A stretch of DNA of 64,000 nucleotides from Catenuloplanes atrovinosus (GTDB lineage Bacteria; Actinomycetota; Actinomycetes; Mycobacteriales; Micromonosporaceae), in assembly GCF_031458235.1 (NCBI RefSeq), contig NZ_JAVDYB010000001.1, positions 186,001 to 250,000 of the forward strand, read 5' to 3'. Within the stretch, counting starts at the first letter, position 1. Each line of letters begins with the position of its first letter. Below are positions 10,092-58,019 of the stretch, one piece after another. The notes beneath the pieces are model-generated. The model was not told the origin of the DNA. It was given only the letters and a program-made list of their open reading frames with translations, and ran no database searches. A program made the translations under genes and the position numbers.

Positions 10092-10188
10092 CCGGCTCCG
10101 ATGCGGGGGCGGAGCGGCGGCGGCGCCGCCGCGAGGTTGGCCCGCGGGAGCATGCGGAGCGCCACCACGCCGGGAGCGGGAAGAAAAG
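10092..10188 (+). repeat. Dispersed structured repeat, copy A
   Basis: This copy lies in the gene-free 465-bp gap between convergent truB and the receiver gene. It begins CCGGCTCCGA, has a GC-rich middle, then GGTTGGCCCGCGGGAGCATG, and closes with CCACGCCGGGAGCGGGAA. The same order of blocks occurs at 57914-58019 in the same orientation and at 20230-20336 inverted. The rest of the gap, 9817-10091 and 10189-10281, shows no gene; apparent ORFs there are frames through repeat and GC-rich DNA. Confidence 0.75.
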
Positions 10189-10281
10189 GTGCGGAAGCCG
10201 GCCACGCCGAGGAGGGGACCGGACCGCGGCGCCCGGGCAGCGACCGGCGACCGCAGCCGGAGACGGGTGCGGGGACGACGG

Positions 10282-10665
10282 CTAGTGGGGCAGGTGGGTG
10301 GCGATGACGGTGACCAGGTCGGCGGCGGCGTAGGGCTTGTCGAGGAAGCCGTCGCAGCCGGCTTCCAGGGCGGCGGCGCGGTCGCTCGGCAGAACGCTGG
10401 CGGTGAGCGCGATGACCTTGGGTTTCTCCTGGGCGGTGGCGAGTTCGGTGGCGAGGTCGAGGCCGCTGCCGTCGGGCAGGTTCATGTCGAGCAGGACCAC
10501 GTCGACCTGGTCGGGGTGGCGCAGGACGTCGCGGGCGGCGGCGAGACTGCCGGCCTCGACCAGGCGGGCGTCGCGCACCTGGGGGTCTTCGGCGCGGGCC
10601 AGCACGGCCCGCACCAGCACGCGGTTGAGTTCCTCGTCCTCCACCAGCAGGATGCGTGCGGTCAT
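10282..10665 (-). CDS. Stand-alone response regulator receiver protein
   Basis: This 127-residue protein is a single CheY-like receiver domain. Visible motifs are the acidic pocket VEDEELN, the phosphorylation site in VVLLDMNLPDGSGL, the switch residue in IALTAS and the Lys in DKPY. There is no output domain, so it probably passes phosphate on or acts by protein contact. Its ATG overlaps the stop of the upstream hybrid kinase gene (ATGA), so the two are co-translated and very probably form one phosphorelay. Confidence 0.93.
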   Translation of the reverse strand: MTARILLVEDEELNRVLVRAVLARAEDPQVRDARLVEAGSLAAARDVLRHPDQVDVVLLDMNLPDGSGLDLATELATAQEKPKVIALTASVLPSDRAAALEAGCDGFLDKPYAAADLVTVIATHLPH

Positions 10666-13421
10666 CGGTCACCTCGTTCCGCAGTGTCGATCTCGAGTCG
10701 GCGCCGGGCGGCGGTGCCGCTGGCCAGCGCGACCAGGTTGTCCCACTCCTCGGCGCCGTGGATGGCGCGGGCCAGGAGCTTGCCGGTGACCTCCGCGTGC
10801 CCGGCCGTGACGGTGGCGGTCGAGGCGAGCGCGACCACCGGCACGTCCGCGTTCGCGGGGTCCTCGTTGAACGCGGCCAGCAGGGAGAACCCGTCCAGGT
10901 CGGGCATGCGCAGGTCGCAGACGATCAGGTCGAAGTGGTGGTTGCGGCTGATCTCTAGGCCCTCGCGGCCGTCCGCGCAGGAGATCACCTCGGCGCCGGC
11001 GGTACGCAGGCTCTCCTCCACCGAGTGGCGGCTCTCCTCGTCGTCGTCGACCACCAGGACCGTGGGCTGCTCGGCCGGGCCGGTGTAGATGTGCCGGGCC
11101 AGCGAGCCGACCAGTTGGTGGTCGTCGACCGGCTTGACCAGGAAGTCGGCGGCGCCCATGGCGATGCCGGCGTGCCGCTCGTCGACGACGGAGATGAACA
11201 GCACCGGGATCGTGGCGAGCAGGCCGTCGTTCTTCAGCTCGCGGATCACGGACCAGCCGTCGATGCCGGGCAGCACCACGTCGAGCAGGATCGCGTCCGG
11301 CGGGTTGAGGCGCGCGGCGTTCAGGCCGGACTCGCCGGACGTGGCCATCTCCACCCGGTAGCCGGCCTTCACCAGGTACGTGCGGATCAGCTCGGCGGAC
11401 CGCACGTCGTCCTCGATCAGCAGGATCCGGCCGCGTTCCGGCAGTTGCGGCAGGACGACCACGGTGTCCGCGGCGACCGCGGGCTCGGTCGCGTCCGGCA
11501 GCGTGATGGTGAAGCGGCTGCCCGCGCCGAGCTCGGAGGTGACCGTGATGTCGCCGCCGTGCGCCTGCACCAGGCGGCGGGCCAGCGCCAGCCCGAGCCC
11601 GGTGCCGGCCTGGTGGTGCGCGCGGTCGCCGACCTGCTGGAACTCCTCGAACACGCGGGTCAGGTCCTCGTCGGCGATGCCGATGCCGGTGTCCGCGACG
11701 GTGATCGCCACCATCGGCCGGCCGTCGTCCGCGGTGAACGCGTGCGCCTCCAGCGTGATCGTGCCGCCGTCCGGCGTGAACTTGATGGCGTTGGAGAGCA
11801 GGTTCTCCAGGATCTGCCGGAACCGCAGCGCGTCGGCGCGCACGGTCAGCTCCGGCAGGTCGCAGACGATCCGCTGGGACTTCTTCTCGGTGAGCGGGCG
11901 CAGGCCGGTGAGCAGTTCCCGGGCCGCGTCGTCCACGCGCAGCGGCGCCGGGTGCAGGTCGATCCGGCCGGCCTCGACCTTGGCCAGGTCCAGGATGTCG
12001 TTGATCAGGCCGAGCAGGTGGCGGCCGCTGTTGTGGATGTGGTCGACCCAGTCCGCGGGCACGCTGCGCCGGTCCTCGACCGGCTGCTCGCCCCGCATCA
12101 GGTCGCTGAACCCGATGATCGCGTTCAACGGGGTACGCAGTTCGTGGCTCATGTTGGCCAGGAAGTCGCTCTTCGCCTGGCTGGCCTGGGTCAGCTTCTC
12201 CACGGACGCGGCCAGTTCGGCGGAGAGCCGGCGCTGCTCGTCCACCAGCCGCCGCTGCTCGGCCAGGACGCCGCCGCGTTCGGCCAGCACGCCGGCGTGC
12301 CCGCCGAAGTCGGCCAGCAGCCGCAGATCGTCCTCGTTGAACAGGCCCCGGTAGCGGTGGAAGATCAGGACCGCGCCGGTCTCGTGCGGTGGGATGCGCA
12401 TGCGCAGCGTGGTCAGGTACCCGCGTTCGCCCTGGACGGCGTAGTGGCTGGCGAGCGTGGGCGGCGCGGCGCGGCGGCGGAACCGGGACACCGCGGCGAG
12501 CGGCACCGGCTGCGGCGCGTCCATCAACTCGTCCAGGTCGGCGGCGTCGAACCCGGTCAGCGACGCCTCGACCTCGCCCGCGTAGGCGGTCTGCTCGAGG
12601 TGCCCGCCGGCCTTGCGGACCAGCACCGCGACCGCGTCCGCCGCGGACTGGTCGCGCATCATCTCCGCGTACCGCTGCCAGATCTGCTGCCCGGTCTCGG
12701 TGGCCGGGGCGTCCAGCAGCCGGCCGGTGACGCCCTGCAGTGTCGTCGCGGACCACATCCGGCGCAGCCACGACGGCGGCAGGAACGCGGCGGCGTATCC
12801 GATGCCGCAGAGCACGGCCAGCACGCGCGCGGCCACGCTGAACGGCGACGGCCCGGGCCGGACCGGGAACAGCGCGCCGAACCCCATCAGCACCACCACG
12901 CCGGCGAACGCGATGGTGGCGCCGGCCGCGATCCACAGCCTGATCCCGGACGCGCCGGTCCGCCGGCGCGCCTCGGTGACCAGGTGCAGGCCGGGGATGG
13001 TCTCCGCGATCGCGAAGAACGCCATGGCGGCGATCAACGCGGCCGGGCGCAGCGGCCGCCCGGTCGGGATGAGCAGCAGCGTGGCGCCGAGCAGCAGACC
13101 GCCGGTGAGCGCCGCCAGGGTGAGCTGCCGCCGGACCGGGCGCAGCAGCGAGACCAGGCGCATCGTGAGGTACGGATGGAGCAGCAGCACCGGCAGGAAC
13201 AGCGCGGTGACCGGCCGCTCGCCGCCGATCTCCGGGAGCCCGCCGGTCGTCCGGTTCAGCGCGTCGAGGGCGAAGATCGCGGTCGGCGCCGCGAAGACCA
13301 GCGCGACCTCGCGCTGCAGCGGGTCCGGGCGCCGGATGAGGTGGTAGAGCACGCGCAGGAAGAGCGCGATGAAGAGCACCTCCGCCGCGAGCACCACCAG
13401 CTGATTGCCGTCCAGTCTCAT
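10662..13421 (-). CDS. Hybrid sensor histidine kinase with two receiver domains
   Basis: The product of about 919 residues has seven or eight N-terminal hydrophobic segments up to about residue 220, then a GAF-like region and a coiled-coil linker. The dimerisation/phosphoacceptor domain (SHELRTPLNAIIGF, His near 426) is followed by the ATPase domain with N box (LLSNAIKF), DTGIGI and GTGLGLAL. Two C-terminal receivers follow, with acceptor Asp residues near 714 and 836. The first keeps the Lys-Pro pair (LVKPVDD); the second has no clear equivalent. ATG 13421 was chosen over a GTG at 13433. The 3' end overlaps the receiver gene, and the divergent small gene at 13545 may be functionally linked. 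Confidence 0.92.
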   Translation of the reverse strand: MRLDGNQLVVLAAEVLFIALFLRVLYHLIRRPDPLQREVALVFAAPTAIFALDALNRTTGGLPEIGGERPVTALFLPVLLLHPYLTMRLVSLLRPVRRQLTLAALTGGLLLGATLLLIPTGRPLRPAALIAAMAFFAIAETIPGLHLVTEARRRTGASGIRLWIAAGATIAFAGVVVLMGFGALFPVRPGPSPFSVAARVLAVLCGIGYAAAFLPPSWLRRMWSATTLQGVTGRLLDAPATETGQQIWQRYAEMMRDQSAADAVAVLVRKAGGHLEQTAYAGEVEASLTGFDAADLDELMDAPQPVPLAAVSRFRRRAAPPTLASHYAVQGERGYLTTLRMRIPPHETGAVLIFHRYRGLFNEDDLRLLADFGGHAGVLAERGGVLAEQRRLVDEQRRLSAELAASVEKLTQASQAKSDFLANMSHELRTPLNAIIGFSDLMRGEQPVEDRRSVPADWVDHIHNSGRHLLGLINDILDLAKVEAGRIDLHPAPLRVDDAARELLTGLRPLTEKKSQRIVCDLPELTVRADALRFRQILENLLSNAIKFTPDGGTITLEAHAFTADDGRPMVAITVADTGIGIADEDLTRVFEEFQQVGDRAHHQAGTGLGLALARRLVQAHGGDITVTSELGAGSRFTITLPDATEPAVAADTVVVLPQLPERGRILLIEDDVRSAELIRTYLVKAGYRVEMATSGESGLNAARLNPPDAILLDVVLPGIDGWSVIRELKNDGLLATIPVLFISVVDERHAGIAMGAADFLVKPVDDHQLVGSLARHIYTGPAEQPTVLVVDDDEESRHSVEESLRTAGAEVISCADGREGLEISRNHHFDLIVCDLRMPDLDGFSLLAAFNEDPANADVPVVALASTATVTAGHAEVTGKLLARAIHGAEEWDNLVALASGTAARRRLEIDTAERGDR

Positions 13422-13544
13422 AGCAATACGCACTGTAGTTGTGCCTGGTGGCGCCGTCGGGTGTTTGCGTTAGAGATCGGCTATCCGGCGCGCGCGCCGT
13501 ACCCGTGCGGTCGTTTTTCGGGGTTTTCATGGTGGAATATCGGA

Positions 13545-13760
13545 ATGGCAGAGCTAGCGGAGCAGGTCCGGCAGGGCACCCACGACCTGGCCAACCTGCT
13601 CGGCATCGCCGCCAACTACCTGCAGTTCCTGGAGGAGGACCTGGACGGCGTGGCGGACGCCGGCGAGGCCCGCGCGCACGTCGAGCGGATCACCGCCGCG
13701 GTGGACCGGGCCGCCGAGGTCACCCGGAGACTGGCCGCCGCCGCGATCACCCCCTCCTGA
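13545..13760 (+). CDS. 71-residue orphan histidine phosphoacceptor-like (DHp-like) protein
   Basis: ATG 13545 opens a 71-residue, mostly helical product. It contains THDLANLLGIAANYLQFLEE, followed by a second helix, ARAHVERITAAVDRAAEVTR. This resembles the H-box helix and second helix of histidine-kinase DHp domains of the HDFNNLLG class, without an ATPase domain. It could be a phosphotransfer partner, a decoy or a remnant of a kinase. It is divergent from the hybrid kinase gene across a 123-bp gap and precedes ribF by 31 bp. No strong Shine-Dalgarno is visible. The coding call is reasonable; the functional reading is inference. Confidence 0.65.
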   Translation: MAELAEQVRQGTHDLANLLGIAANYLQFLEEDLDGVADAGEARAHVERITAAVDRAAEVTRRLAAAAITPS

Positions 13761-13791
13761 CCGCGTCGCCGCGCTTGCATAGGCTTGCGGC

Positions 13792-14724
13792 ATGCAGCGG
13801 TGGCGGGGATACGACGCGGTTCCGGGCGGCTGGGGCCGATCGGTCGTGACGATCGGGGTCTTCGACGGGGTGCACCGCGGGCATCAGGCCACCATCGGCG
13901 ACGCCGTGAAACGCGCCCGCGACCTGGGCATCCGCTCGGTGGTCGTGACGTTCGACCCGCACCCGTCCGAGGTGGTCCGGCCCGGCTCGCACCCGGCCGT
14001 GCTGACCGAGGCCGGCCGCAAGGCGGACCTGATCGAGGCGCTCGGCGTGGACGCGCTCTGCGTGGTGCCGTTCACCCAGGACTTCTCCCGCCGCGGCCCG
14101 GAGGAGTTCGTGCACGAGGTGCTGGTCGAGCACCTGCACGCGGCGCAGGTCGTGGTCGGGGACAACTTCCGGTTCGGGCACCGGGCGGCCGGCGACATCG
14201 CGCTGCTGCGGCGGCTCGGTCGCACGTTCGGCTTCGCCGTGGAGGACGCGCCGCTGATCACCGCGGAGGAGGGCACGGTCTTCTCCTCCACCTACATCCG
14301 GGCCTGCGTGGACGCGGGCGACGTGTCGGCCGCGACCCGCGCGCTGGGCCGCCCGCATCGGCTGGAGGGCGTCGTCGTCCGCGGCGACCAGCGCGGCCGT
14401 GAGCTCGGCTTCCCCACGGCGAACCTGCTCTCCGGGAGGTACGCCGCGATCCCGGCCGACGGCGTCTACGCGGGCTGGCTGGTGCGCCGCGACGAGCGGT
14501 TGATGGCCGCGGTGTCGATCGGCACCAACCCCACGTTCTCCGGCACCGAGCGCCGGGTCGAGGCGTACGCGCTGGACTTCGCGGGCGACCTCTACGGCGA
14601 GCGGCTGGCGCTGGACTTCGTGGTGCGGCTGCGCGAGACGCGTGCGTACGAGGGCATCGAGCCGCTGGTGGCGCAGATCACCGAGGACGTCGCCCAGGCC
14701 AGGGAGCTTCTCAGCGCTGGGTGA
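13792..14724 (+). CDS. ribF: Bifunctional riboflavin kinase / FAD synthetase
   Basis: RibF phosphorylates riboflavin to FMN and adenylates FMN to FAD. The N-terminal nucleotidyltransferase domain shows TIGVFDGVHRGHQ, VVTFDPHPSEV and the GDNFRFGHRAAGD motif. The C-terminal flavokinase domain shows GELGFPTANL-type sequence (RELGFPTANL), ADGVYAGW and SIGTNPTF. The product has 310 residues, normal for the family. ribF followed by rpsO and pnp is a conserved actinobacterial order, and truB normally lies nearby, as here. Confidence 0.96.
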   Translation: MQRWRGYDAVPGGWGRSVVTIGVFDGVHRGHQATIGDAVKRARDLGIRSVVVTFDPHPSEVVRPGSHPAVLTEAGRKADLIEALGVDALCVVPFTQDFSRRGPEEFVHEVLVEHLHAAQVVVGDNFRFGHRAAGDIALLRRLGRTFGFAVEDAPLITAEEGTVFSSTYIRACVDAGDVSAATRALGRPHRLEGVVVRGDQRGRELGFPTANLLSGRYAAIPADGVYAGWLVRRDERLMAAVSIGTNPTFSGTERRVEAYALDFAGDLYGERLALDFVVRLRETRAYEGIEPLVAQITEDVAQARELLSAG

Positions 14725-14774
14725 GCGGACCGGTTGCGGGCGGTGTTCGGATGAGTTGCTGTAGTGTGGTTGAG

Positions 14775-14792
14775 ACGCCGGGTGTCCGGCGT
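14775..14792 (+). promoter_or_regulatory. Hairpin in rpsO 5' leader
   Basis: A perfect 7-bp stem (14775-14781 with 14786-14792) encloses the loop GTGT about 75 bp upstream of rpsO. Many S15 genes are autoregulated by S15 binding a leader structure, but I cannot match this hairpin to a known S15 site. It could also be a weak terminator for ribF. Confidence 0.35.
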
Positions 14793-14865
14793 TTCGCTCC
14801 GCCTGCCTGCTCGACGCCGCGGGCCGCGGATCAGCGACAGGTTGCAACCGACAGGATTTGATGGA

Positions 14866-15135: not shown

Positions 15136-15142
15136 CCTCTTC

Positions 15143-15168: not shown

Positions 15169-15379
15169 TCCGCAACACACCACAAACGCACAGCTGGGCC
15201 GCACTGACCACCGCCGGTCAGCGCACCGGTCCTCGGTAGTGGCCTCCGGGCCGGCGGATCACCGCCGCCCCGGGCGCTTCGATCGAAGACCGGCCGACTG
15301 AGCAGTTGCCCCGACGCGGGCAACAGCGCCCCGGCAGAGGTGGTCGTGGCCCACGACCGATTGGAGTGCAACACCGCTT
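15169..15379 (+). promoter_or_regulatory. Structured 5' leader of pnp
   Basis: This 211-bp gene-free stretch between the rpsO hairpin and pnp contains short inverted repeats. One is a 7-bp stem at 15305-15311/15318-15324. In E. coli the pnp leader hairpin is cut by RNase III and used by PNPase for autoregulation. A similar role here is inferred from position only. Confidence 0.35.
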
Positions 15380-17785: not shown

Positions 17786-19843
<2,058 letters not shown>

Positions 19844-19863
19844 CCGGCCGTCCCTCGCGTCTC

Positions 19864-19899
19864 GAAGCGGGAAGACCACGCTCTCGGTCTTCCCGCTTC
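19864..19899 (+). terminator. Terminator hairpin after dapB, merged with repeat array
   Basis: A perfect 14-bp stem (19864-19877 with 19886-19899) has an 8-nt loop. Its right arm, ending TTCCCGCTTC, is also the start of the first repeat core, so the terminator and the repeat share sequence. Confidence 0.8.
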
Positions 19900-20229
19900 C
19901 GGCGTGGCCGGGACGGGCATGCTCCCGTGGCGCTGTGCGGGCTCCGGGGGTGACCGCTTCCGGCGTGGTCCGGTCGCGCATGCTCCAGCTTCCCGCTTTC
20001 GGCGTGGTCGGGCCGCGCATCCTCCCGTGGCGCTGTGCGGGCTCCGGGGGTGACCGCCTTTGGGCGTGGTCCGGTCGCGCATGCTCCAGCTTCCCGCTTT
20101 CGGCGTGGTCGGGCCGCGCATCCTCCCGTGGCGCTGTGCGGGCTCCGGGGATGACCGCTTCCGGCGTGGTCCGGTCGCGCATGTTTCCCGGCGGGGCCGT
20201 GCCGCCTCCGAGGATGACCTCGAACCAAG
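19888..20229. repeat. Tandem array of about 100-bp units
   Basis: The block CTCCCGTGGCGCTGTGCGGG starts at 19922, 20022 and 20123, giving periods of 100 and 101 bp. Each unit holds two diverged copies of a shorter core resembling CGCTTCCGGCGTGGTC followed by CGCGCATGCTCC. Cores begin near 19894, 19954, 19994, 20057, 20095 and 20156. The third unit decays after 20185. No gene is supported here; ORFs on either strand are repeat frames. The array lies between dapB and the convergent GNAT gene. Confidence 0.85.
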
Positions 20230-20336
20230 ATTTTCCCACTCCCAGCGTGGTCCAGCCGCGCATGCTCCCGCGGGCAAACCTTGCCGCGAGCTCCGACTCC
20301 GCTGGCGCTCCGCTCCGCTCGCGGCGTCGGAGCCGG
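20230..20336 (-). repeat. Dispersed structured repeat, copy B (inverted)
   Basis: Read on the minus strand this copy starts CCGGCTCCGAC, continues through GCGGAGCGGAGCGCCAGCGG and GTCGGAGC, then TTTGCCCGCGGGAGCATGCG, and ends in ACGCTGGGAGTGGGAAAA. It matches copy C at 57914-58019 closely and copy A at 10092-10188 more loosely. The 8-bp arms GCTCCGAC and GTCGGAGC are inverted and could form a stem. The following 300 bp, to 20637, are GC-rich with no supported gene. Confidence 0.8.
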
Positions 20337-20637
20337 TTGGGTGGGCGGCTGGGGAGAACCGCGGTGGTCGTGGCCGGTCTGGCCGCACGGCGCGCGTCTG
20401 GTCCCGGCCGGGAAAGGCGTGCGGCCAGATCCGCGGTCGGCCCGACGTCGCTGCTGGCCGGCTTTCGCGGCTGGCAGCCTCCGGCTGCCGGGCACCCTCT
20501 CGCTGTTGGCCTTTTCGCTGCTTCCGCCGACAACGGGTCGCGTCGGCCGGGAGCGTCGGCCGCGAGGGGCGGCCGCGAGGGGCGGTCCCGGCTCACGGGA
20601 GCCGCGCGGGTTTCAAGCCGGCCGGCCGCGGGACCGG

Positions 20638-20711
20638 CAGGGAGGAGCGCCAGCGACGACCGGTGCCCGCGGGAGCATGCGGATCGTCGCCACGCCGGAA
20701 GCGGGCAAAGC
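20638..20711 (+). repeat. Partial copy of the dispersed repeat, copy D
   Basis: The right half of the element is present: GGAGCGCCAGCG, then TGCCCGCGGGAGCATGCGGA and CCACGCCGGAAGCGGGCAAA. It is opposite in orientation to copy B, so the 19.9-20.7 kb island is flanked by inverted repeat ends. The convergent GNAT gene ends 44 bp further on. Confidence 0.7.
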
Positions 20712-20754
20712 GGTTCTGTGATCTTTTAGAATGTCGAAAATCCGACAAAGCACT

Positions 20755-21327
20755 CTAGAGCGGGGCGTCCGCCAGGGAGACGTGCAGGCGGAGCTGGGGG
20801 ATGAGCAGGTCGTCGACGTCGAGGGCGCGGGAGGCGCCGTCCGGTTCCCAGCCGGCGGAGCCGAGGAATTTGCGGGTCGCGGCGTCCGCGTCGTATGCCC
20901 AGGCGATGGCGGTGCCGAAGAGGTCCTCGCGCCACAGGTCGACGGCGGCGGACAGCAGCCGGCTGCCGTGGCCGCGCCGGCCCCAGCGCGGCTCGACCAG
21001 CAGATCGGTGACGGCCGCCACGTCCGGGCCGAGCGCGCCGGGGTCCTCGCCGGGCGCGAGTGCCTGCTCGTCGGCCGGACCCGCTGCCGCGAAGCCCACC
21101 AGATACGATTGTTCGGCCTGCTCAATGGCGACCAGCACCCGGTGCCGGGGGGTCGGCGGGGCTTCGATCGAGTCCCGCCAGCGCTCCGTCAGCCAGGTGA
21201 CGTCGAGCGTGTCGAGCACCTGCCTGGGCAGCAACCGGCGATACGCGACCCGCCAGGTCGTGAGCTGGATTCGCGCGATGTCACCGGCGTCCTGCGGGCC
21301 GGCCGGGCGAACGTACCCGAGTGCCAT
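20755..21327 (-). CDS. GNAT family N-acetyltransferase
   Basis: This 190-residue GNAT-fold protein carries the acetyl-CoA-binding region VTDLLVEPRWGRRGHGSRLL (motif A, Arg/Gly-x-x-Gly-x-Gly type). A later segment, AIAWAYDADAATRKFLGSAG, resembles motif B. The opening VRPAGPQDAGDIARIQLTTW is typical of stand-alone acetyltransferases. ATG 21327 was chosen because upstream in-frame codons lack a good start. The substrate is unknown. It is divergent from the GT87 gene, so the two share a promoter region of about 50-80 bp. Confidence 0.88.
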   Translation of the reverse strand: MALGYVRPAGPQDAGDIARIQLTTWRVAYRRLLPRQVLDTLDVTWLTERWRDSIEAPPTPRHRVLVAIEQAEQSYLVGFAAAGPADEQALAPGEDPGALGPDVAAVTDLLVEPRWGRRGHGSRLLSAAVDLWREDLFGTAIAWAYDADAATRKFLGSAGWEPDGASRALDVDDLLIPQLRLHVSLADAPL

Positions 21328-30298: not shown

Positions 30299-31873
30299 AT
30301 GGATCGTAGACGCGCACTCACCACGGCGGTGGTCATCGCCACGGCAGGTGCCGCCGTCGCGCTGACGTTCCCCGCGTTCGCCGGGACCGGTGAGCGGGAG
30401 CGGCCCAGCGGTGACGTGACCGCCGACCGTGCGCTCGCCGCGCCCGAGGTGCTGGCCGCGCTCTCCCGCGACTTCGGCCTGACCACCGAGCAGGCGACCG
30501 ACCGGCTGGCGGCGGAGCGGGAGGCGGCGGAGGCGGTCCGTACCGTCAAGGCCGCGGCCGGCGCCGCGTGGGCCGGTGCGTGGCTCGCCGAGAACGCAGA
30601 GACACTGACCATCGCGGTGACGGACCAGGCGCTGGCCGACGAGGTTCGGGCGGCCGGCGCCGAGCCGAAGATCGTGGCGCACAGCTCGGCCGTGCTGGAC
30701 CAGGTCAAGTCCGCGCTCGACACGAACGCGGACGAGGCCGCCGAGTCGATCCCCGGCTGGTACGTCGACCCGTCGAGCAACACCGTGGTCGTGCTGGCCC
30801 GCGCGGACGTCGCGGACGCGGAGGCGACCGCGAAGGAGTTCGCCGAGGCCAGCGGCGTGGACGCGGCGGCGGTGCGGGTCGAGACCAGCGAGGAGGCGCC
30901 GAAGCCGCTGTTCGACGTGGTCGGCGGCGACGCGTACTCGGTCGGCAACGCGGGCTGCTCGATCGGCTTCTCGGTGGTCGGCGGCTTCGTCACGGCCGGC
31001 CACTGCGGCCGGGCCGGCGCGGACACCCGCGGCGTGAACGGCGTGGCGCAGGGCGAGATCACCGCCTCCTCGTTCCCCGGCGACGACTTCGCGGTGGTTC
31101 GGACGAACGCGGACTGGACGCCGACCGCCTCGGTCAACAACTACAACGGCGGCGTGCTGCCGGTCGCCGGTTCCGAGGTCGCACCGGTCGGCGCGTCCAT
31201 CTGCCGCTCCGGAGCCACCACCGGCCTGCACTGCGGCGAGGTGCGGGCGCTGAACGCCACGGTCAACTACGCCGAGGGTACGGTCACCGGCCTCACCCGG
31301 ACCAGCGTCTGCGCCGAGCCGGGCGACTCCGGCGGCGCGTTCATCGCCGGCGACCAGGCCCAGGGCGTCACGTCCGGCGGCTCCGGCGACTGCACCCGCG
31401 GCGGCGTCACGTTCTTCCAGCCGGTCAACGAGATCCTGGAGCGGAACAACCTGACGCTGATCACCACCGGCGACGGCGGCACCCCGCCCGCCACCACGCC
31501 GCCCGCGACGCCGCCGGCCACCACGCCGCCGGCCGAGCCGAGCGAGCCGCCGGCCGACGGCGGGGACTGCGCGGCCGAGGGCAGCGTGGCGCGCGACGGC
31601 ACGATCACCCGGCCCGGCCAGCGCCGCGACGTGGTCCGCTTCCGGGCGCCGGCCGGCACGCACGCGGCCTGCCTGACCGCGCCCGAGGGCGCCGACTTCG
31701 ACCTCTACCTCCAGCAGCAGGTGAACGGCGGCCGCTGGGTCACCGTCGCCCGCGCCGCCACGGACGCGGGGTCGGAGACGCTGACCTTCGAGGGCGGGGC
31801 CGGCAATTACCGCTACCGTGTCGCCTCGGCCTCCGGGACCGGCGAGTTCGAGCTGCGCTTCGCGGTGAACTAG
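30299..31873 (+). CDS. Secreted S1 family serine protease (streptogrisin-like) with C-terminal PPC-type domain
   Basis: The 524-residue preproprotein has a signal peptide (residues 1-29, twin Arg near the start, hydrophobic core VVIATAGAAVALTFPAFA). A propeptide extends to about residue 203. The chymotrypsin-fold domain has catalytic His235 (TAGHC), Asp263 (GDDFAVV) and Ser344 (EPGDSGGAF). A Pro/Thr linker, near 393-425, leads to a C-terminal beta domain (about 427-524) like the bacterial pre-peptidase C-terminal domain. Cys pairs typical of streptogrisins are present. ATG 30299 has AAGGAG upstream. It is probably an extracellular protease. The 186 bp upstream contain no other supported gene. 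Confidence 0.93.
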   Translation: MDRRRALTTAVVIATAGAAVALTFPAFAGTGERERPSGDVTADRALAAPEVLAALSRDFGLTTEQATDRLAAEREAAEAVRTVKAAAGAAWAGAWLAENAETLTIAVTDQALADEVRAAGAEPKIVAHSSAVLDQVKSALDTNADEAAESIPGWYVDPSSNTVVVLARADVADAEATAKEFAEASGVDAAAVRVETSEEAPKPLFDVVGGDAYSVGNAGCSIGFSVVGGFVTAGHCGRAGADTRGVNGVAQGEITASSFPGDDFAVVRTNADWTPTASVNNYNGGVLPVAGSEVAPVGASICRSGATTGLHCGEVRALNATVNYAEGTVTGLTRTSVCAEPGDSGGAFIAGDQAQGVTSGGSGDCTRGGVTFFQPVNEILERNNLTLITTGDGGTPPATTPPATPPATTPPAEPSEPPADGGDCAAEGSVARDGTITRPGQRRDVVRFRAPAGTHAACLTAPEGADFDLYLQQQVNGGRWVTVARAATDAGSETLTFEGGAGNYRYRVASASGTGEFELRFAVN

Positions 31874-31929: not shown

Positions 31930-31955
31930 ATCTCCCGTTCTCAGGGCCACGATCT

Positions 31956-31998
31956 CCCCGCTTCCGGCGTGGTCGCGGGCCGCTTGCTCCCGCGGGCA
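31956..31998 (-). repeat. Partial copy of the dispersed repeat, copy E
   Basis: The plus strand reads CCCGCTTCCGGCGTGGTC, then CTTGCTCCCGCGGGCA, the conserved end block of the element in the copy-B orientation. It sits between the S1 protease terminator and the DUF2784 gene. Confidence 0.65.
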
Positions 31999-32090
31999 CC
32001 GGTCGGCCGCATGAGCACAGGGGTGGGTGGCCGGGGGCCGGGCTCCCTGCGATCCGTGGGTGGGCGCTTCACAAGAGCTACCGTGGCGGC

Positions 32091-35131: not shown

Positions 35132-35582
35132 TGGCGGGCGCCGGGAACGGCGCGCGGAACGTGAACGCGTCCGGCGTCGGCCCGTTCGCGCCGAGCGCGC
35201 GCAGCCGCGCCACCCCCTCCTCCGGCGTGGGCAGCGTGCCGGCCGGGATCCACCACAGCACCAGCGACGCCCGGTAACCGAGCGGCACGAACCACTCGCG
35301 CCGCCGCCGCAGGTAGTCGAGGTGCTCACTCTGATAGGTGAACGCGCGCAACGCCTCCACCGACTCCCAGACCGACAGCGTGACGATCACGTCCGGCTCG
35401 GTCGGCCGCACCGTGGTGGCGTCGCCGGCCGGCCCCTCGGCCAGCCGCCAGACGAAGCCGGGGGAGCGGTCGGCCAGCGCGTTCATCAGGTCGAGGCCGG
35501 CGACGAATCCGGCGGTGGCCGGGTCGTCCAGCGGTGCGCGGAGGCGGGCGGCGTTGAACTGGGCGAGGTGATAGCCGGTCAT
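35085..35582 (-). CDS. DUF3291 domain protein
   Basis: This 165-residue protein matches DUF3291, an alpha/beta barrel related to antibiotic-biosynthesis monooxygenases. It opens YHLAQFNAARLRAPLDDP and contains LSVWESVEALRAFTYQSEHL and WWIPAGTLPTPEEG. Function is unknown. ATG 35582 is the start; the longer TTG start is less plausible. It lies 32 bp downstream of the SufR-like regulator on the same strand and is probably co-transcribed. The last 47 bp overlap ftsK in antisense. Confidence 0.88.
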   Translation of the reverse strand: MTGYHLAQFNAARLRAPLDDPATAGFVAGLDLMNALADRSPGFVWRLAEGPAGDATTVRPTEPDVIVTLSVWESVEALRAFTYQSEHLDYLRRRREWFVPLGYRASLVLWWIPAGTLPTPEEGVARLRALGANGPTPDAFTFRAPFPAPATTDAAPPAPLPARPA

Positions 35583-35614
35583 GCCGGTAGTCTCGCCACT
35601 CGCCCGCTCTAATG

Positions 35615-36641: not shown

Positions 36642-36685
36642 CCGCGGCCGTCTTCGCAGAACCGGGTACGACCGCACTCGTCCGG
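36642..36685 (-). ncRNA. Guanidine-III (ykkC-III) riboswitch
   Basis: On the minus strand the 44-nt sequence begins CCGGACGAGTGCGGTCGTAC, continues CCGGTTCTGCG, and ends AAGACGGCCGCGG. This matches the guanidine-III class pattern: CCGG, ACGAG, GUACCCGG, then AAGACGG. P1 pairs CCGG with CCGG. The pseudoknot stem P2 pairs GCGGTCGT with ACGGCCGC, eight pairs including one G-U. The 3' strand lies next to the ribosome site of the SMR gene, so control of translation is likely. Assignment is by recognition; no covariance search was run. Confidence 0.9.
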
Positions 36686-36805
36686 GACGACCGCGAGCCG
36701 CGGGCGTCACGTCACCGACGGTAGCACCGGCGCCGTCACCTCCGCCGTGGCTCAGCTCACCGGGCGACGTCGAGGTATCGGCCGCGGTGCCGGTACCCTC
36801 GGGTG

Positions 36806-42107: not shown

Positions 42108-42200
42108 CCGAGGGCCGGTCGGCCATTCGCATTGTTACGCAGCATGCATCGTCCGGCTACGATGAGCCAGCCATGTCGAGGGCTCTCGTAATGTGACGAG

Positions 42201-42371
42201 GTGACGCGGGTGTCATTGCGGCTGGACGAGGTGTACGCGGGCGGCGAGACGTTCGCGGAACGGTGCCGCCGCCGGTGGCACGACGACGGCCGCGACCCGG
42301 GCCGGTACGTGGCTAGGTACCGGATCCCGCCGGGCCCGGTCCCGGCTGGCAGCGGGGGCACCAGTAGGTGA
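42201..42371 (+). CDS. Small hypothetical ORF, 56 residues
   Basis: GTG 42201 or GTG 42210 opens a short frame with VSLRLDEVYAGGETFAERCR, followed by RRRWHDDGRDPGRYVARYR and a Pro/Gly tail. The sequence looks protein-like, with acidic and basic patches, but no family is recognised. The last 59 bp overlap the convergent nei2 gene. The 90 bp between pspM and this frame show a relatively AT-rich promoter-like stretch. Confidence 0.3.
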   Translation: MTRVSLRLDEVYAGGETFAERCRRRWHDDGRDPGRYVARYRIPPGPVPAGSGGTSR

Positions 42372-48209: not shown

Positions 48210-48329
48210 CGCGCACTCCCTCCCGTATGTCCGGAAAAATCGTGGCCTTTCTGGGTACGGTGGGCGCGCCTGCCGGGTTTCCGGGCCCGCCGCCGGGAAA
48301 TGTCGTACCCGGCGGGCAGGATGGTGGGC

Positions 48330-53327
<4,998 letters not shown>

Positions 53328-53544
53328 GGCGCGGTCCGGCGGCGGTCGTGCGGTGGCTTCGTGATGTCGTGCGCGTGAACGGTGGCCGGGCCGGTGCTCG
53401 CTCTGGGTGCGCGGTACCGCGCCGGTGCGCCGGGTGTTTCCACTGTTCAAGGGTGACGTCGCGGGTTCATTCCACACCGGCGGAGTCTGTGATCTTGAAT
53501 TTCCGTCACAGCCAATGCCCAGCATGTGTTGGTAAAGTGCGCGC

Positions 53545-53649
53545 ATGATCGACCCCAGCCCAGAGGGCTGTAGTCCCCAGCCGGGTGAGCCCCGGCCTTC
53601 TCGTCAAAGCCCAGACGTCACGCGCACCGAGGGTGACTCGTCGTGCTGA
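53545..53649 (+). CDS. 34-residue acidic, proline-rich leader ORF before the CNNM gene
   Basis: ATG 53545 opens MIDPSPEGCSPQPGEPRPSR, with seven Pro in the first 23 residues, and ends at TGA 53647-53649, overlapping the GTG start of the CNNM gene at 53643. A TAAAGT hexamer at 53533-53538 is seven bases upstream, so the message may be leaderless. Asp/Glu-Pro leader peptides such as MgtL (MEPDPTPLP) sense low Mg2+ through ribosome destabilisation. The comparison is inference. Confidence 0.5.
   Translation: MIDPSPEGCSPQPGEPRPSRQSPDVTRTEGDSSC
53556..53642 (+). promoter_or_regulatory. Three leader hairpins, the last enclosing the ribosome site
   Basis: Hairpin 1 pairs 53556-53561 with 53565-53570. 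Hairpin 2 pairs 53580-53585 with 53591-53596. Hairpin 3 pairs GACGTCAC (53614-53621) with 53633-53642, with a 2-nt bulge. Its loop and base contain the GAGGG ribosome site, and it ends directly before GTG 53643. Opening of hairpin 3 by ribosomes on the leader ORF could control CNNM translation. Confidence 0.5.
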
Positions 53650-54962
53650 TCGTGGTCGGGCTGTTGCTGATTCTCGTGGTGACCGCCGCTACCGGGTACT
53701 TCGTGGCCCAGGAGTTCGGATACGTCGCCGTCGACCGTGGCAAATTGCGCCAGGAGGCGGAGGCGGGCGACGCCGCCGCCGCGCGGGCACTGAAGGTCAC
53801 GGAGCGACTCTCCTTCATGCTCTCCGGCGCGCAGCTCGGCATCACCGTGACCGCGCTGCTGGTCGGCTACGTCGCGGAGCCGTTCCTGGGCGGCGGCCTG
53901 GCCGCACTGTTCGGCGTGGCCGGCGTGCCGGCGGGCGTCAGCTACCCGATCTCGATGGGGCTGGCGCTGGCGTTCGCGACCGTGGTCCAGATGGTCTTCG
54001 GTGAGCTGGCCCCCAAGAACCTGGCGATCGCCCGGCCGGAGTCGCTGGCCAAGGCGCTGAGCCGGTCCACGCTGATCTACCTCACCGTATTCGGGCCGGT
54101 GATCAAACTGTTCGACCTGGCGGCCAGCCGGCTGCTGCGCCGCATCGGCATCGAACCGGTCGAGGAACTGCCCGAGGGCGCCACGCCGGAGGACCTGACG
54201 CAGATCATCGCGGAGGCGCAGAAGGAGGGTCACCTCGACGCCGACACCTCCGCGCTGCTCGACCGCGGCCTCGACTTCCGCCGGCTGACCGCCGGCGAGG
54301 TGATGGTGCCGCGGGTGGACGTGTCGACCGTGCGCGCGGACGACCCGGTCAGCCGGGTGGTCGAGCAGATGGCGTCCGGCCACTCCCGCTTCCCGGTGCA
54401 CGGCGCCGAGGGCGTCGACGACGTGGTCGGCGTGGTCGGCATCAACGACGTCCTGGCGATCCCGCCGGACCGCCGGTCCGAGGTACCGGTCCGCGAGATC
54501 ACCTCGCCGCCGCTGATGGTGCCGGAGTCGCTGCCGGTCCCGGCCGTGCTCGACCGGCTGCGCGCCGGTCACCGGCAGCTCGCGATCGTGGTCGACGAGT
54601 ACGGCGGCTTCGCCGGCGTGATCACGCTGGAGGACATCGCGGAGGAGCTGGTCGGCCCGATCCGCGACGAGGTGGACCTGCCCGAGGCCTCCCCGGTCCG
54701 GCAGGACGACGGCTCCTGGCTGGTCCCGGCGCGCTGGCGGATCGACGAGATCGCGGACGCGACCGGCATCGCGCTGCCCGAGGCGGACGAGTACGACACG
54801 GTCTCCGGCCTGATCATGCGCCGGCTCGGCCGCATCCCGGAGGTCGGCGACGCGCTGGAGCTCACGCTCCCCGGCATCGAGTCGGAGGAGCGCGCGCTGG
54901 TGAGCGTGCTCTCCGTGGACCGGCACGTGCCCGGAACGGTACGGGTGGAGGTGCGGGCATGA
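53643..54962 (+). CDS. CNNM/CorC (HlyC) family transporter, full length
   Basis: The 439-residue protein has an N-terminal DUF21 membrane domain (three to four helices, including MLSGAQLGITVTALLVGYVA and MVFGELAPKNLAIARPES). A tandem CBS pair follows (about residues 215-340, with GVVGINDVLAIP and AIVVDEYGGFAGVITLEDI), then the C-terminal CorC_HlyC domain. CNNM proteins transport or sense Mg2+ with ATP-Mg bound at the CBS pair. GTG 53643 overlaps the stop of a Pro-rich leader ORF. The stop overlaps the ATG of a tandem-repeat ORF that leads to a second CNNM gene. Confidence 0.93.
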   Translation: MLIVVGLLLILVVTAATGYFVAQEFGYVAVDRGKLRQEAEAGDAAAARALKVTERLSFMLSGAQLGITVTALLVGYVAEPFLGGGLAALFGVAGVPAGVSYPISMGLALAFATVVQMVFGELAPKNLAIARPESLAKALSRSTLIYLTVFGPVIKLFDLAASRLLRRIGIEPVEELPEGATPEDLTQIIAEAQKEGHLDADTSALLDRGLDFRRLTAGEVMVPRVDVSTVRADDPVSRVVEQMASGHSRFPVHGAEGVDDVVGVVGINDVLAIPPDRRSEVPVREITSPPLMVPESLPVPAVLDRLRAGHRQLAIVVDEYGGFAGVITLEDIAEELVGPIRDEVDLPEASPVRQDDGSWLVPARWRIDEIADATGIALPEADEYDTVSGLIMRRLGRIPEVGDALELTLPGIESEERALVSVLSVDRHVPGTVRVEVRA

Positions 54963-55261
54963 GCGAGCTTGCGAGCGAATCATTAGCTCAGCGCCGACCA
55001 CACGCGAACCTGCGGCGTGCCGGTGTGCCCGGCCCAGGTGAGCTTGCGAGCGAATCATTAGTTCAGCGCCGGCCACACGGAAGCCTGCGGCGTGCCGGTG
55101 TGCCCGGCTTAGGTGAGCTTGCGAGCGAATCATTAGCTCAGCGCCGACCACACGTAAACCTGCGGCGTGCCGGTGTGCCCGGCCCAGGCGAGCGTGCGAG
55201 CGAATCGTCGGCTCGGCACCGCGTTCCGCGAATCCGCGGCGTTGAGGGGAGTCCGGCATGA
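54959..55261 (+). CDS. 100-residue repeat ORF bridging the two CNNM genes
   Basis: ATG 54959 overlaps the upstream stop (ATGA) and TGA 55259-55261 overlaps the next ATG (ATGA). The product consists of three 25-residue repeats beginning ELASESLAQRRPH and ending LRRAGVPG, plus a decayed fourth. It is basic and low in complexity. No domain is recognised. Translation is possible because both junctions are coupled, but the repeat may be selected as RNA or DNA rather than as protein. Confidence 0.35.
   Translation: MSELASESLAQRRPHANLRRAGVPGPGELASESLVQRRPHGSLRRAGVPGLGELASESLAQRRPHVNLRRAGVPGPGERASESSARHRVPRIRGVEGSPA
54965..55250 (+). repeat. 75-bp tandem repeat, 3.8 copies
   Basis: Units start at 54965, 55040, 55115 and 55190, each 75 bp, beginning GAGCTTGCGAGCGAATCATT and including CCTGCGGCGTGCCGGTGTGC. 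The first three are nearly identical; the fourth decays after about 20 bp. The unit length is a multiple of three, so the frame stays open through all copies. Confidence 0.92.
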
Positions 55262-56319
55262 GTACCGGCTGGGCGGTGACGCTGTCGCTGTTGTTGCTGG
55301 CCGGGAATGCGTTCTTCGTGGCGGCGGAGTTCGCGTTGATCGCCAGCAAGCGGTACCGGCTGGAGCAGGCGGCGGCCGGTGGCGGCGCCGCGGACCGGGC
55401 CGCGCTGGCCGGCAGCCGCGAGCTGACCGTGATGCTGGCCGGTGCGCAGCTCGGCATCACGCTGTGCTCGCTCGGGCTGGGCGCGCTCGCCGAGCCGGCG
55501 ATCGAGCACCTGGTCAGCCCGCTGCTGCACCAGGTCGGGCTGCCGGACGCGCCGAGCCACGTGATCGCGTTCCTGTTCGCGCTGACGCTGGTGACGTTCC
55601 TGCACCTGGTGCTCGGCGAGATGATGCCGAAGTCGTGGGCGATCAGCCACCCGGAGAACTCGGCGCGTCTGCTGGCGCTGCCGTTCCGCGGCTTCACCCG
55701 CGTCGTACGCCCGATTCTGACCGGTTTGAACAGCGCCGCGAACGCGGTGCTGCGCCTGTTCAGGATCGAGCCGCAGAACGAGCTCGCGCAGGTGCATGAT
55801 CCTGAGGAGCTGCGCATGCTGCTGGAGCAGTCGCGCGAGCACGGCACCCTGCCGGTGGACCAGCATGCGCTGCTGACCAGCATGCTCGCGCTGCAGCGGA
55901 CCACGGTGGCGGAGATCGCCACGCCGGCCGCGCGGATGGTGAGTGTGGCTCCGGGCGACACGGCGTACCGGATCGAGCAGGTTTCGCACGCCACCGGCCG
56001 GTCCCGCCTGGCGGTGATCGACCCGGACGCGCCGGGCGTGCTCGGCATGGTGCACGTGCGCGACGCGGTGCGCGTCACCGCCGGCGAGGAGGAGGCTGTG
56101 ACCGCGGCCGAGCTGATGTCGCCGCCGTTCACACTGCGCGCGGACGAGACGCTGATGCAGGCGGTGGGACTGATGCGGGCGGAGCGCGCGCAACTGGCGC
56201 TGGTGTCGGACGCGGGGGCGACGGTCGGCTTCGTCGCGCTGGAGGATCTCCTGGAGGAGGTCATCGGCGAGTTCGACGACGAGACCGACGAGGTGCCGCG
56301 CGGCCGTCGCCTGCGCTGA
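55258..56319 (+). CDS. CNNM family protein lacking the CorC_HlyC domain
   Basis: The 353-residue protein has a DUF21 membrane domain (LLLLAGNAFFVAAEFALIAS, MLAGAQLGITLCSLGLGALA, LVLGEMMPKSWAISHPE) and a CBS pair (VIDPDAPGVLGMVHVRDAV and LVSDAGATVGFVALEDLLEE). It stops after the CBS region, about 85 residues shorter than its neighbour and without the C-terminal CorC_HlyC domain. Paired CNNM genes of unequal length are common in actinobacteria and may form heterodimers. ATG 55258 overlaps the stop of the repeat ORF. Confidence 0.92.
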   Translation: MSTGWAVTLSLLLLAGNAFFVAAEFALIASKRYRLEQAAAGGGAADRAALAGSRELTVMLAGAQLGITLCSLGLGALAEPAIEHLVSPLLHQVGLPDAPSHVIAFLFALTLVTFLHLVLGEMMPKSWAISHPENSARLLALPFRGFTRVVRPILTGLNSAANAVLRLFRIEPQNELAQVHDPEELRMLLEQSREHGTLPVDQHALLTSMLALQRTTVAEIATPAARMVSVAPGDTAYRIEQVSHATGRSRLAVIDPDAPGVLGMVHVRDAVRVTAGEEEAVTAAELMSPPFTLRADETLMQAVGLMRAERAQLALVSDAGATVGFVALEDLLEEVIGEFDDETDEVPRGRRLR

Positions 56320-56390
56320 GTCGCCACACAGGGAACGCCCAGTTTCGTACGGATATAACGGACTTTTCGGATAGAGAGAGGACGAGGCTC

Positions 56391-57419
56391 ATGGTCTTCA
56401 AGAAGATGCTCAGCGCCCTCGGCGTCGGCGGGCCCTCCGTCGACACCGTGCTGGCGAACCCGAACACCCGTCCCGGACTCACGCTCGACGGCCAGGTCAA
56501 CATCGTCGGCGGCACCACGGCGGTCGACATCGAGCACGTCGCGCTCGGCCTGGTCACCCGCGTCGAGGTCGAGGGCCACGACACCGAGTGGGACTCGGTC
56601 ATGGAGTTCCACCGCGTGGTCGTCGCCGGCGCGTTCCGGCTGGACGCGGGCGAGCAGCGGCAGCTGCCGGTCCGCTTCCCGATCCCGTGGGAGACGCCCG
56701 TCACCGACGTGTACGGCCAGCGGCTGCGCGGCATGACCATGGGCCTGCGCACCGAGCTGTCCGTCGCCCGGGCCGTCGACAAGGGCGACCTGGACCCGAT
56801 CTACGTGCACCCGCTGCCGATCCAGGAGCGAATCCTGGACGCGTTCATGCGGCTCGGCTTCCACTTCAAGAGCGCGGACCTGGAGCGCGGCCGGATCAGC
56901 GGCGTCAACCAGCAGCTGCCGTTCTACCAGGAGATCGAGTTCTACCCGCCGGCGCAGTACCAGGGCACGATCAACGAGGTCGAGCTGACCTTCGTGACCA
57001 ACCCGCAGGGCATGGACGTGATCCTGGAGTTCGACAAGCGCGGCGGGTTCCTGACGCAGGGCCGTGACACGTTCGGCCGCTACCAGGTCTCGCACGCGCA
57101 GGCCGACAACACCGACTGGACCCAGGTCGTGGACGGCTGGATGCGGCAGGCGGCCGGCAGCTACCAGTCGATGCGCTCGTCCTACGGCGCGCCCGGCGGC
57201 TACCCGCCGCCCGGCTACCCGGGCGGCGGGCACGGGGGTCCGGGTTATGGCGCTCCCGGATACGGCCACGGCGGTCACGGCGGCTACCACGGTCACTACC
57301 GCCACGGCGGCGGCATGGGCGGCGTCGTGGCCGGCGCCGCCGGGGGTCTCCTCGGCGGCATGATCCTCGGCGAGGCCATGGAGGACATGTTCGAGGGCGA
57401 CGAAGGCGACGAGGGCTGA
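56391..57419 (+). CDS. Spo0M (SpoOM) family protein
   Basis: This 342-residue arrestin-like protein opens MVFKKMLSALGVGGPSVDTV and has the Spo0M core LDGQVNIVGGTTAVDIEHVA and LPVRFPIPWETPVTDVYGQR. The C-terminus is Gly/Tyr/His-rich, a low-complexity tail with SYGAPGGYPPPGYPGGG-type repeats, then a Gly/Met patch and an acidic end. Spo0M affects sporulation and envelope traits in Bacillus; its action in actinobacteria is unclear. Shine-Dalgarno GAGAGGACG precedes ATG 56391. A strong terminator follows. Confidence 0.92.
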   Translation: MVFKKMLSALGVGGPSVDTVLANPNTRPGLTLDGQVNIVGGTTAVDIEHVALGLVTRVEVEGHDTEWDSVMEFHRVVVAGAFRLDAGEQRQLPVRFPIPWETPVTDVYGQRLRGMTMGLRTELSVARAVDKGDLDPIYVHPLPIQERILDAFMRLGFHFKSADLERGRISGVNQQLPFYQEIEFYPPAQYQGTINEVELTFVTNPQGMDVILEFDKRGGFLTQGRDTFGRYQVSHAQADNTDWTQVVDGWMRQAAGSYQSMRSSYGAPGGYPPPGYPGGGHGGPGYGAPGYGHGGHGGYHGHYRHGGGMGGVVAGAAGGLLGGMILGEAMEDMFEGDEGDEG

Positions 57420-57430
57420 TTTCGTCCGCA

Positions 57431-57473
57431 AGCTGTCCGGAACGTGGAACTTTCACGTTTCGGACAGCTTTTT
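57431..57473 (+). terminator. Rho-independent terminator after spo0M
   Basis: A 16-bp stem with one G-T pair (57431-57446 with 57454-57469) has a 7-nt loop and ends in a run of five T. It starts 11 bp after the stop codon. Confidence 0.92.
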
Positions 57474-57913
57474 GTGTGATCGTGCCGTGTGAGTTCGAGC
57501 GGTGCGGGGATCTCCACGACAGAAAGACCGCGATCCTGGTCGTGGCCGGGGCTCACATACTCCCGTAGCGCTTGGCGGATTCGTCCTGCCGCGGCCTCTT
57601 GCGTGCGGCAGCCGGTGCCGTTCGGACGACCGGCTCTGGCGCGGCGGGTGGAGCGGAGCGCGACCGGCGGGTGGTAGCCGAGGCCATTCGCGCCCGAGGC
57701 CGGCCGACGGCCGCACCCCGGGAGCGTGGCCGAACGGGTGATCCCGGTTGAGCCAACGCCGGAACCGGCCTCGACGGCGTGGGCGAGGGAGAGCACCAGC
57801 GGGCACGCGATGCCATTCGAGACGAGATCTCGTACCACGGTTCGCCGGAGGCCGCTCCTCGGCCACGCCGGAAGCGCGGCCGAGGGATGGTGGTGAATGA
57901 GCCGACGACGGAG

Positions 57914-58019
57914 CCGGCTCCGACGCGGTGGGCGGAGCGGAGCGCTAGCGGAGTCGGAGCACGCCGCGGGTTTGCCCGCGGGAGCACGCCCAACGGGACC
58001 ACGCCGGAAGCGGGAAAAT
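57914..58019 (+). repeat. Dispersed structured repeat, copy C
   Basis: This is the clearest copy. CCGGCTCCGACGC is followed by GCGGAGCGGAGCGCTAGCGG, GTCGGAGC, TTTGCCCGCGGGAGCACG and CCACGCCGGAAGCGGGAAAA. The 8-bp arms GCTCCGAC and GTCGGAGC are conserved as an inverted pair. It lies in the convergent gap between spo0M and the LysE gene. The preceding 440 bp (57474-57913) contain decayed fragments of the same kind, for example near 57710-57770 and 57840-57890, and no supported gene. Confidence 0.85.

Follow-up and report, generated by a model that had tools for sequence, protein, structure and literature searches.

To our knowledge, few REP-like elements have been described for actinobacteria, and the way in which transcripts end between convergent genes in high-GC actinobacteria is poorly known. 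Two further systems bear on the comparison, namely the MIRU of mycobacteria, an intergenic repeat found between tandem genes in operons, and integron attC sites, which carry GTTRRRY/RYYYAAC boxes. The available portions of the REP literature describe high-copy, extragenic, imperfect palindromes that lie between convergent or unidirectional genes, form mosaic modules and arrays, and are known near stop codons (PMC3733652, PMC2817692, PMC12306157), with a bias towards convergent gaps and 3' ends also described (PMC3733652); in the part available, one REP survey tabulates three Actinomycetota species. For Streptomyces clavuligerus, the accessible text of one study reports U-less, highly structured 3' ends and Rho-dependent ends, with A-tracts ahead of the stem (PMC8269248).

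Here we describe a real, genome-wide, polar repeat family of Catenuloplanes and a diverged sister family in other genera of the Micromonosporaceae. The starting point was a window, by which we mean the whole 64,000-nucleotide stretch analysed (positions 186001-250000 of its own genome, G000, of 8,906,892 bases in one contig), for which a sequence-only reading had proposed a structured repeat at convergent gene ends and knew of no description of it. Among the open-licence PMC papers in the matches listed, a collection outside which most subscription papers fall, none appears to describe the family either.

The repeat in the window and across the genome

Throughout, the strand reading CCACGCC is taken as plus, and the end of the element at GCGGGAA is termed the R end. 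A window-wide scan with a core profile recovers five good copies and one weak remnant, together with an array made up of six truncated cores (Table 1). The three long copies recognised in the sequence-only reading are all present with small shifts of boundary, the motif CCCGCGGG and its flank are conserved over the sampled copies, the end block lies where it had been placed, and Pfam agrees with the three flanking gene pairs. The inverted arms attributed to the long copies are seen in copies 2 and 3 but not in copy 1, in which the arm has diverged, and the two supposed fragments (20638-20711 and 31956-31998) are instead high-scoring copies of a second subtype, with arm B or a variant of it; the array was absent from the earlier description. 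The copy with core 31951-32002 lies in a tandem gap, and whereas three of four long convergent gaps had been counted as occupied, our gene calls give three of five (gaps of at least 205 bp: 9817-10281, 19844-20754, 35132-35614, 42108-42312 and 57420-58035). The earlier observation of the repeat is partly confirmed.

Table 1 Copies of the repeat in the window, with cores and scores from the core profile scan, and genes flanking the occupied convergent gaps (positions in the window)
Feature	Position	Strand	Core and score	Remarks
truB, left gene of convergent gap 1	8941-9816	+		gene call and Pfam TruB
Arm-A copy 1	10092-10185	+	10135-10184, 46.4 bits	R end 97 bp from the stop it faces, that of the minus-strand response-regulator gene
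Response-regulator receiver gene, right gene of gap 1	10282-10665	-		gene call and Pfam
dapB, left gene of convergent gap 2	19103-19843	+		gene call and Pfam DapB
Direct-repeat array of six truncated cores	19888-20188	-	19888-19930, 19951-19988, 19987-20030, 20060-20090, 20088-20131, 20151-20188	behind the dapB stop
Arm-A copy 2	20229-20337	-	20229-20280, 45.6 bits	arms GCTCCGAC/GTCGGAGC
Arm-B copy	20629-20711	+	20660-20710, 48.2 bits	44-45 bp from the stop it faces, that of the GNAT gene
GNAT acetyltransferase gene, right gene of gap 2	20755-21327	-		gene call and Pfam
Arm-B-type copy, variant arm	31951-32055 (arm end approximate)	-	31951-32002, 43.5 bits	tandem gap, 77 bp past the stop of a trypsin-like protease gene (30299-31873)
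spo0M family gene, left gene of convergent gap 3	56391-57419	+		gene call and Pfam Spo0M
Possible decayed right-block remnant	57858-57876	+	9.8 bits, E 0.063	
Arm-A copy 3	57914-58019	+	57970-58019, 45.3 bits	R end 16 bp from the stop of the LysE-family gene
LysE-type translocator gene, right gene of gap 3	58036-58683	-		gene call and Pfam LysE

With up to three mismatches allowed, the window contains 24 matches to the block CCACGCCGGAAGCGGG, where 5.5 would be expected, and none of 100 shuffles attains 24. The sequence GCCCGCGGGAGCATGCG shows no excess in the window at the same tolerance (5 matches against 3.0 expected), and its weight rests on whole-genome matches. Rfam covariance models give no match at the window copies at gathering scores. 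Elsewhere in the window they identify a Guanidine-III riboswitch (36642-36708, minus strand) and an Actino-pnp RNA (15225-15294, plus strand). The window also contains a separate direct repeat with a 75-bp period (54956-55221; three overlapping copies of 116 nt, 88-89% identical), situated mostly within the gap between the called genes 53643-54962 and 55258-56319.

The census was taken from 80 evenly spaced 20-kb stretches together with the window, which amount to 1.664 Mb or about a fifth of the 8.9-Mb genome, and in which a home-made hexamer caller placed 1458 genes (84.6% coding); with this caller starts may be misplaced and genes missed, stop codons being more reliable than starts. A 53-column core profile found 80 matches in a first pass and 82 in a second, with none in reversed sequence on either occasion, and the merging of overlapping matches left 79 copies, bearing out the suspicion of a dispersed family; proportional extrapolation suggests some 420 copies in the genome. 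Pattern counts over the whole genome give 382 matches to CCACGCCGGAAGCGGG at up to two mismatches against 59 for the reversed pattern, and 75 for the stricter pattern GAGCATGCGN8CCACGCCGG against none for its reversed control. By place, 45 of the 79 copies are in convergent gaps, 28 in tandem gaps, 2 in divergent gaps and 4 at the edge of a stretch, the last being excluded from gap counts, and no copy has its midpoint inside a called gene. When only gaps of 110 bp or more are counted, a copy is present in 31 of 85 between convergent genes, 18 of 266 between tandem genes and 2 of 179 between divergent genes (Fisher 2.5e-10 and 0.004), in line with the preference for convergent gaps proposed earlier. 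Between 3.96 and 5.09 Mb, a range chosen after the counts were seen, 11 sampled 20-kb stretches contain no copies, whereas the remaining 67 contain 68; this range is likewise poor in convergent gaps, of which 0 of 8 are occupied against 28 of 71 elsewhere (p=0.045). Triplets of cores with an 86-bp period occur at L090:6554-6776 and at G000 988525-988722, the former with an additional piece bearing a CCGGGGCTCGGCCCCGG hairpin.

The core consists of two conserved 18-bp blocks around a free spacer of 6-7 nt, GCCCGCGGGAGCATGCGG-N6/7-CCACGCCGGAAGCGGGAA(nAT). From 241 aligned matches in the own genome and four genus mates, we kept 179 distinct cores with no more than 6 gaps, in which 28 of the 36 block columns are at least 90% conserved and the lowest is 77% conserved, with variable sequence in the 6-7 nt between. 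On the left of the core lies an exchangeable arm, either A (CCGGCTCCGAC...GTCGGAG...GAGGTTT) or B (ACCGGCAGGGAGG...GACGACCGGT); enough flank for placement was available for 199 of 256 matches (79 arm A, 104 arm B, 16 neither). The unit thus described measures about 88 bp with arm B and 111-130 bp with arm A. Information content fades some 42 bp (B) or 65-80 bp (A) to the left of the core and, on the right, a few bases beyond GCGGGAAnAT, where about 20 AT-enriched nucleotides follow. Comparison of 96 own copies yields 23 pairs with 10 or fewer differences over the stretch that begins 62 bp to the left of the core and ends 5 bp to its right. These pairs were chosen for likeness within those limits; beyond them identity drops to 0.3-0.4, with a left shoulder of about 0.65 over some 12 bp, a drop which indicates that the unit has defined ends. 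Near-identical copies are found at unlinked places with unrelated flanks. The conserved ends are GCGGGAAnAT and ACCGG, GGGAG being inside block 1 and not terminal. The family, far from being confined to the window or scattered at random, is genome-wide, non-randomly placed and conserved in its boundaries.

The 179 Catenuloplanes cores show no covariation, and changes in the inner stem break pairing without compensation. An RNA structure supported by covariation was accordingly rejected for this core, the top mutual-information pairs being haplotypes of neighbouring bases.

Polarity, relatives and the sister family

The element is polar, with the R end of the core next to the stop codon that it faces and the arm directed outward. 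Where a convergent gap holds just one copy (25 gaps), the end lying closer to its own stop is the R end in 19 cases and the arm end in 5, with one tie (sign test 0.015, Wilcoxon 3e-4); moreover, the R end lies within 30 nt of the stop in 17 of the 25, against 9.4 expected and a maximum of 16 in 20,000 random placements within the same gaps. All seven gaps with copies in both orientations (5 convergent, 2 tandem) have them in the order -,+, with R ends outward. Polarity in tandem gaps is not significant (13 stop-facing, 8 start-facing, p=0.38), and 8 of the 13 stop-facing copies are within 22 nt of the stop. Integron attC sites were considered as a source of stop polarity and rejected, the ends of the element being without attC boxes.

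The family is present in all five genus genomes, across which we compared synteny in three blocks (190, 40 and 40 kb in the own genome). In a scan of named genomes, which may omit records of the window's own genome, all 41 stretches recovered are from contigs of Catenuloplanes japonicus NRRL B-16061. The RAYT domain Y1_Tnp (PF01797) was found in none of the five genus genomes, while as a control it was found in 5 of 14 known genomes including that of E. coli, and a RAYT-driven REP was rejected on account of this absence.

Occupied and empty sites, which the sequence-only reading had proposed to compare, do occur in relatives. The dapB/GNAT gap spans 911 bp with 8 cores in the own genome and 642 bp with 2 cores in G002, and is without a copy in the other three relatives (2 bp in G001, 43 bp in G003, 64 bp in G004); the truB gap bears arm A in the own genome, arm B in G001 and G004, and no copy in G002 (5 bp) or G003 (195 bp). 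Of the own gene ends with a following gap, 21 of 226 have a facing copy. The orthologous end bears a copy in 35 of 76 comparisons if the own end does and in 13 of 647 if it does not, counts in which four relatives contribute up to four comparisons per end that are not independent. At some shared ends the distance from stop to copy is alike (own genome first: 77, 92, 79 and 91 nt; 55, 83, 57 and 56 nt; 832 and 836 nt), and each of these three ends lacks a copy in one or two relatives.

For the divergence of shared ends we used 68 orthologous pairs in 20 groups, with copies more than 250 nt from the stop excluded. Relative to shuffled sites, identity is 0.493 against 0.468 in the spacer (p=0.13; saturated) and 0.887 against 0.882 in the blocks (p=0.21), and arm types agree at 0.62 against 0.39 (p=0.0005). 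Gene conversion should homogenise the spacer along with the blocks, and so does not easily explain the contrast between them; selection acting on the host or on the mobile element itself would explain conserved blocks beside a saturated spacer. The agreement in arm type, together with some equal stop distances, favours the view that old copies have probably been kept in place. However, since the blocks of copies at shared ends are no more alike than those of unrelated copies, recurrent insertion at the same ends may also have contributed.

No target duplication is visible at the occupied and empty sites read, at which the relatives are strongly diverged. The same is true of an expanded gap at 8.634 Mb, which measures 1108 bp in the own genome and where the genes overlap in four relatives. 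In this gap a different, MITE-like unit with terminal inverted repeats GGCGTGTCTGGTAGATC / GATCCACCAGACACGC adjoins a family copy (L106:9805-9973, G000 ~8,634,805-8,634,973), and a 115-bp part of it is found at many places in G003 and others among the matches listed. The C. japonicus contig L124, 3.7 kb long and carrying copies close to its two ends, was considered as a transposon bounded by the repeat and rejected, no transposase being recognised in its ORFs by inspection; its structure is taken as an assembly break.

Outside Catenuloplanes, none of 245 further genomes of the family contains the strict pattern. A 20-base block pattern, with one mismatch allowed, matches only 2 genomes, both of this genus, among 298 genomes of the order, a draw that contained none of g31, g29, g18 or the other sister-family genera. 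By comparison, a sequence-only model built from 40 cores has matches at E 1e-3 in 17 genomes out of 150 of the family, 5 of them from this genus. The matches outside it comprise five g31 genomes (8 to 36 each), two g29 genomes (10 and 3), as well as one match apiece in two g18 genomes and in g24, g26 and g42; G078, also of g31, is not among the 17 and possibly lay outside the 150-genome draw. We read 52 loci from g31, g29 and g18, picked by likeness to the model and leaving aside one g18 match and those of g24, g26 and g42. In their plan an arm is followed by CGGT-GCCCGCGGGAGCATGCG, or a sequence close to it, and this in turn by a right half able to pair, in its commoner forms GTCCGC-loop-GCGGAC-GCGGGC; the left block is thus kept and the right half differs from that of Catenuloplanes. 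These loci make up a diverged sister family in other Micromonosporaceae genera.

Support for a putative core hairpin in the sister family is modest. Drawn on 51 distinct cores, it has 85.5% paired cells against 84.0 when shuffled. Changes on both sides are found in 7 cells, against 1.9 in shuffles, of which 0 of 500 attain 7; yet these double changes are confined to 2 of the 12 pairs, a number that 163 of 500 shuffles attain, and sliding the structure by -2 columns yields 8 cells spread over 3 pairs. An automatic consensus fold of 48 of the 51 cores with their arms shows kept double changes in 5 of its 15 pairs, of which 4 belong to the arm. It retains three outer pairs and the arm stem, with an inner core helix different from the drawn one. 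A test of which strand is folded gives 24 wobbles against 16 and favours neither clearly. For 32 sister loci 3 kb of sequence was available; the setting is convergent in 12, tandem in 14 and divergent in 2, with 4 at an edge, and 21 face a stop, 10 a start and one is not scorable. At six sister-family pieces, only a neighbouring tRNA reached the Rfam gathering score. One sister copy in G111 (L249:204-250) lies near a tRNA gene cut by the end of the piece.

Transcript ends and competing explanations

The conserved sequence has no U-tract on either side, and by a rule of hairpin plus U-tract none of 35 element ends carries a canonical terminator, against 18 of 425 other ends. In convergent gaps the strongest 40-nt hairpin is not stronger at element ends (-18.3 against -21.4 kcal/mol at others), while at 9 tandem element ends it is slightly stronger than at other ends. 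After the stop, the sense strand shows a skew of C over G (0.150, n=30, against 0.027, n=348; p 4e-6) and an excess of YC (0.251 against 0.184; p 4e-10). In convergent gaps the first 20 nt past the stop have an AT content of 0.39 at element ends against 0.25, an AT-rich stretch that is absent from tandem gaps (0.285 against 0.292). The resemblance of this C-rich, G-poor, YC-rich downstream sequence to Rho-loading sequence is suggestive only, and the skew towards C may be only a by-product of the repeat sequence; a role for the element at gene ends is plausible but unproven.

We give about even chances to the explanation that the family is a REP-like miniature element moved in trans, some copies of which have been kept as polar gene-end signals. 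Copies would be spread by a putative enzyme acting in trans on the folded or bipartite core, and landing or survival would be restricted to gene ends in one polarity. A part of the copies would then be kept by selection, aiding the end or the protection of the preceding gene's transcript, and this is the weakest step. On the sense strand such a copy would present an AT-rich stretch followed by a GC-rich, C-over-G, YC-rich one, as a U-less or Rho-assisted 3' end might, and could limit read-through into the convergent neighbour. We prefer this explanation because of the copy number, boundaries, location, polarity, turnover, shared ends, block constraint, skew and a sister family of like layout with some compensatory pairs, taken together; it is weakened by the absence of Y1_Tnp, of a clean insertion with target duplication and of core covariation, by hairpins that are not stronger, and by tandem gaps without an AT stretch or significant polarity. 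An extended form is tentative and, in our judgement, clearly less probable: a portable polar gene-end device with at least two divergent, genus-specific forms across Micromonosporaceae, a putative non-RAYT mobiliser, and domestication as a strand-specific transcript-end or read-through barrier between convergent genes, the two blocks being under selection around a free spacer.

The closest rival, to which we assign a lesser but still appreciable probability, dispenses with any benefit to the host: purely selfish REP-like DNA, in which the moving enzyme would recognise the two blocks, insertions would settle at the least harmful places and no copy would be retained for the host. A defined unit, hundreds of copies (by extrapolation), arrays and presence or absence between species would all be expected of it, as would the convergent and 3'-end bias reported for REPs in the text available (PMC3733652), whereas blocks that are conserved at shared ends beside a saturated spacer, and the excess of copies at ends shared with relatives, speak against it, and polarity demands an additional insertion rule. 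Polarity speaks for a third reading, a site for a dimeric DNA-binding protein at the ends of transcription units, serving as a polar roadblock or nucleoid organiser; the partly inverted sequence CCCGC..GYGG-N6/7-CCRC..GCGGG, with two blocks, a free spacer of near-fixed length, and conservation of primary sequence without covariation, fits such a site. Nevertheless, the half-sites are only partly symmetric, a putative protein would leave the arms unexplained, and the sister family keeps the left block with a different right half, so that we consider this reading rather unlikely. Two further possibilities, both raised by the sequence-only reading, are improbable. A classical MITE of an insertion sequence in the genome would be short, dispersed and found in all five genus genomes, as the family is, but the strict sense of the term is not supported, since terminal inverted repeats are missing and no target duplication is visible at the diverged sites read, and the MITE-like unit that does possess such repeats, in one of the same gaps, is a different sequence. 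Slightly less probable still is a family of canonical bidirectional intrinsic terminators, for although GC-rich stem-loops between convergent genes are what it predicts, the U-tract is missing on both sides, no element end qualifies, and hairpins are no stronger in convergent gaps, if slightly so at the tandem ends. The earlier interpretation is partly supported, in that the dispersed family, the convergent preference, the REP-like character and the presence or absence between species are borne out; polarity formed no part of it.

A polar family that occupies some gene ends and is missing from the same ends in sister species offers a natural experiment on transcript ends, and it points to a putative mobilising enzyme.

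Relation to described systems

The element resembles MITEs in being short and dispersed, with no autonomous coding capacity seen, and differs from them in its two conserved ends, which are unrelated by inspection. With the U-less 3' ends of S. clavuligerus it shares a GC-rich stem without a U-tract and, in convergent gaps, an AT-rich stretch before the element; those ends are not one sequence family, whereas the present element is a dispersed repeat with constrained sequence blocks. Set against the general description of MIRU given at the outset, it is likewise an actinobacterial intergenic repeat oriented to the adjoining gene, but one found mostly between convergent rather than tandem genes.

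The family is best classed as a REP-like kind that differs from described REPs in its ends, its unit and the lack of a RAYT domain in five genus genomes. As in REP, BIME and REPIN sequences, copies are numerous and extragenic, occupy convergent or tandem gaps, avoid divergent ones and form mosaic modules and arrays. Unlike REPs, it has a GTAG (GTGG/GGAG) or CGTC tag at neither consensus end, and in place of a palindromic unit of 20-40 bp it has one of 88-130 bp, composed of an arm and a two-block core, the core being only partly palindromic. It further departs from REPs in being polar relative to the stop codon.
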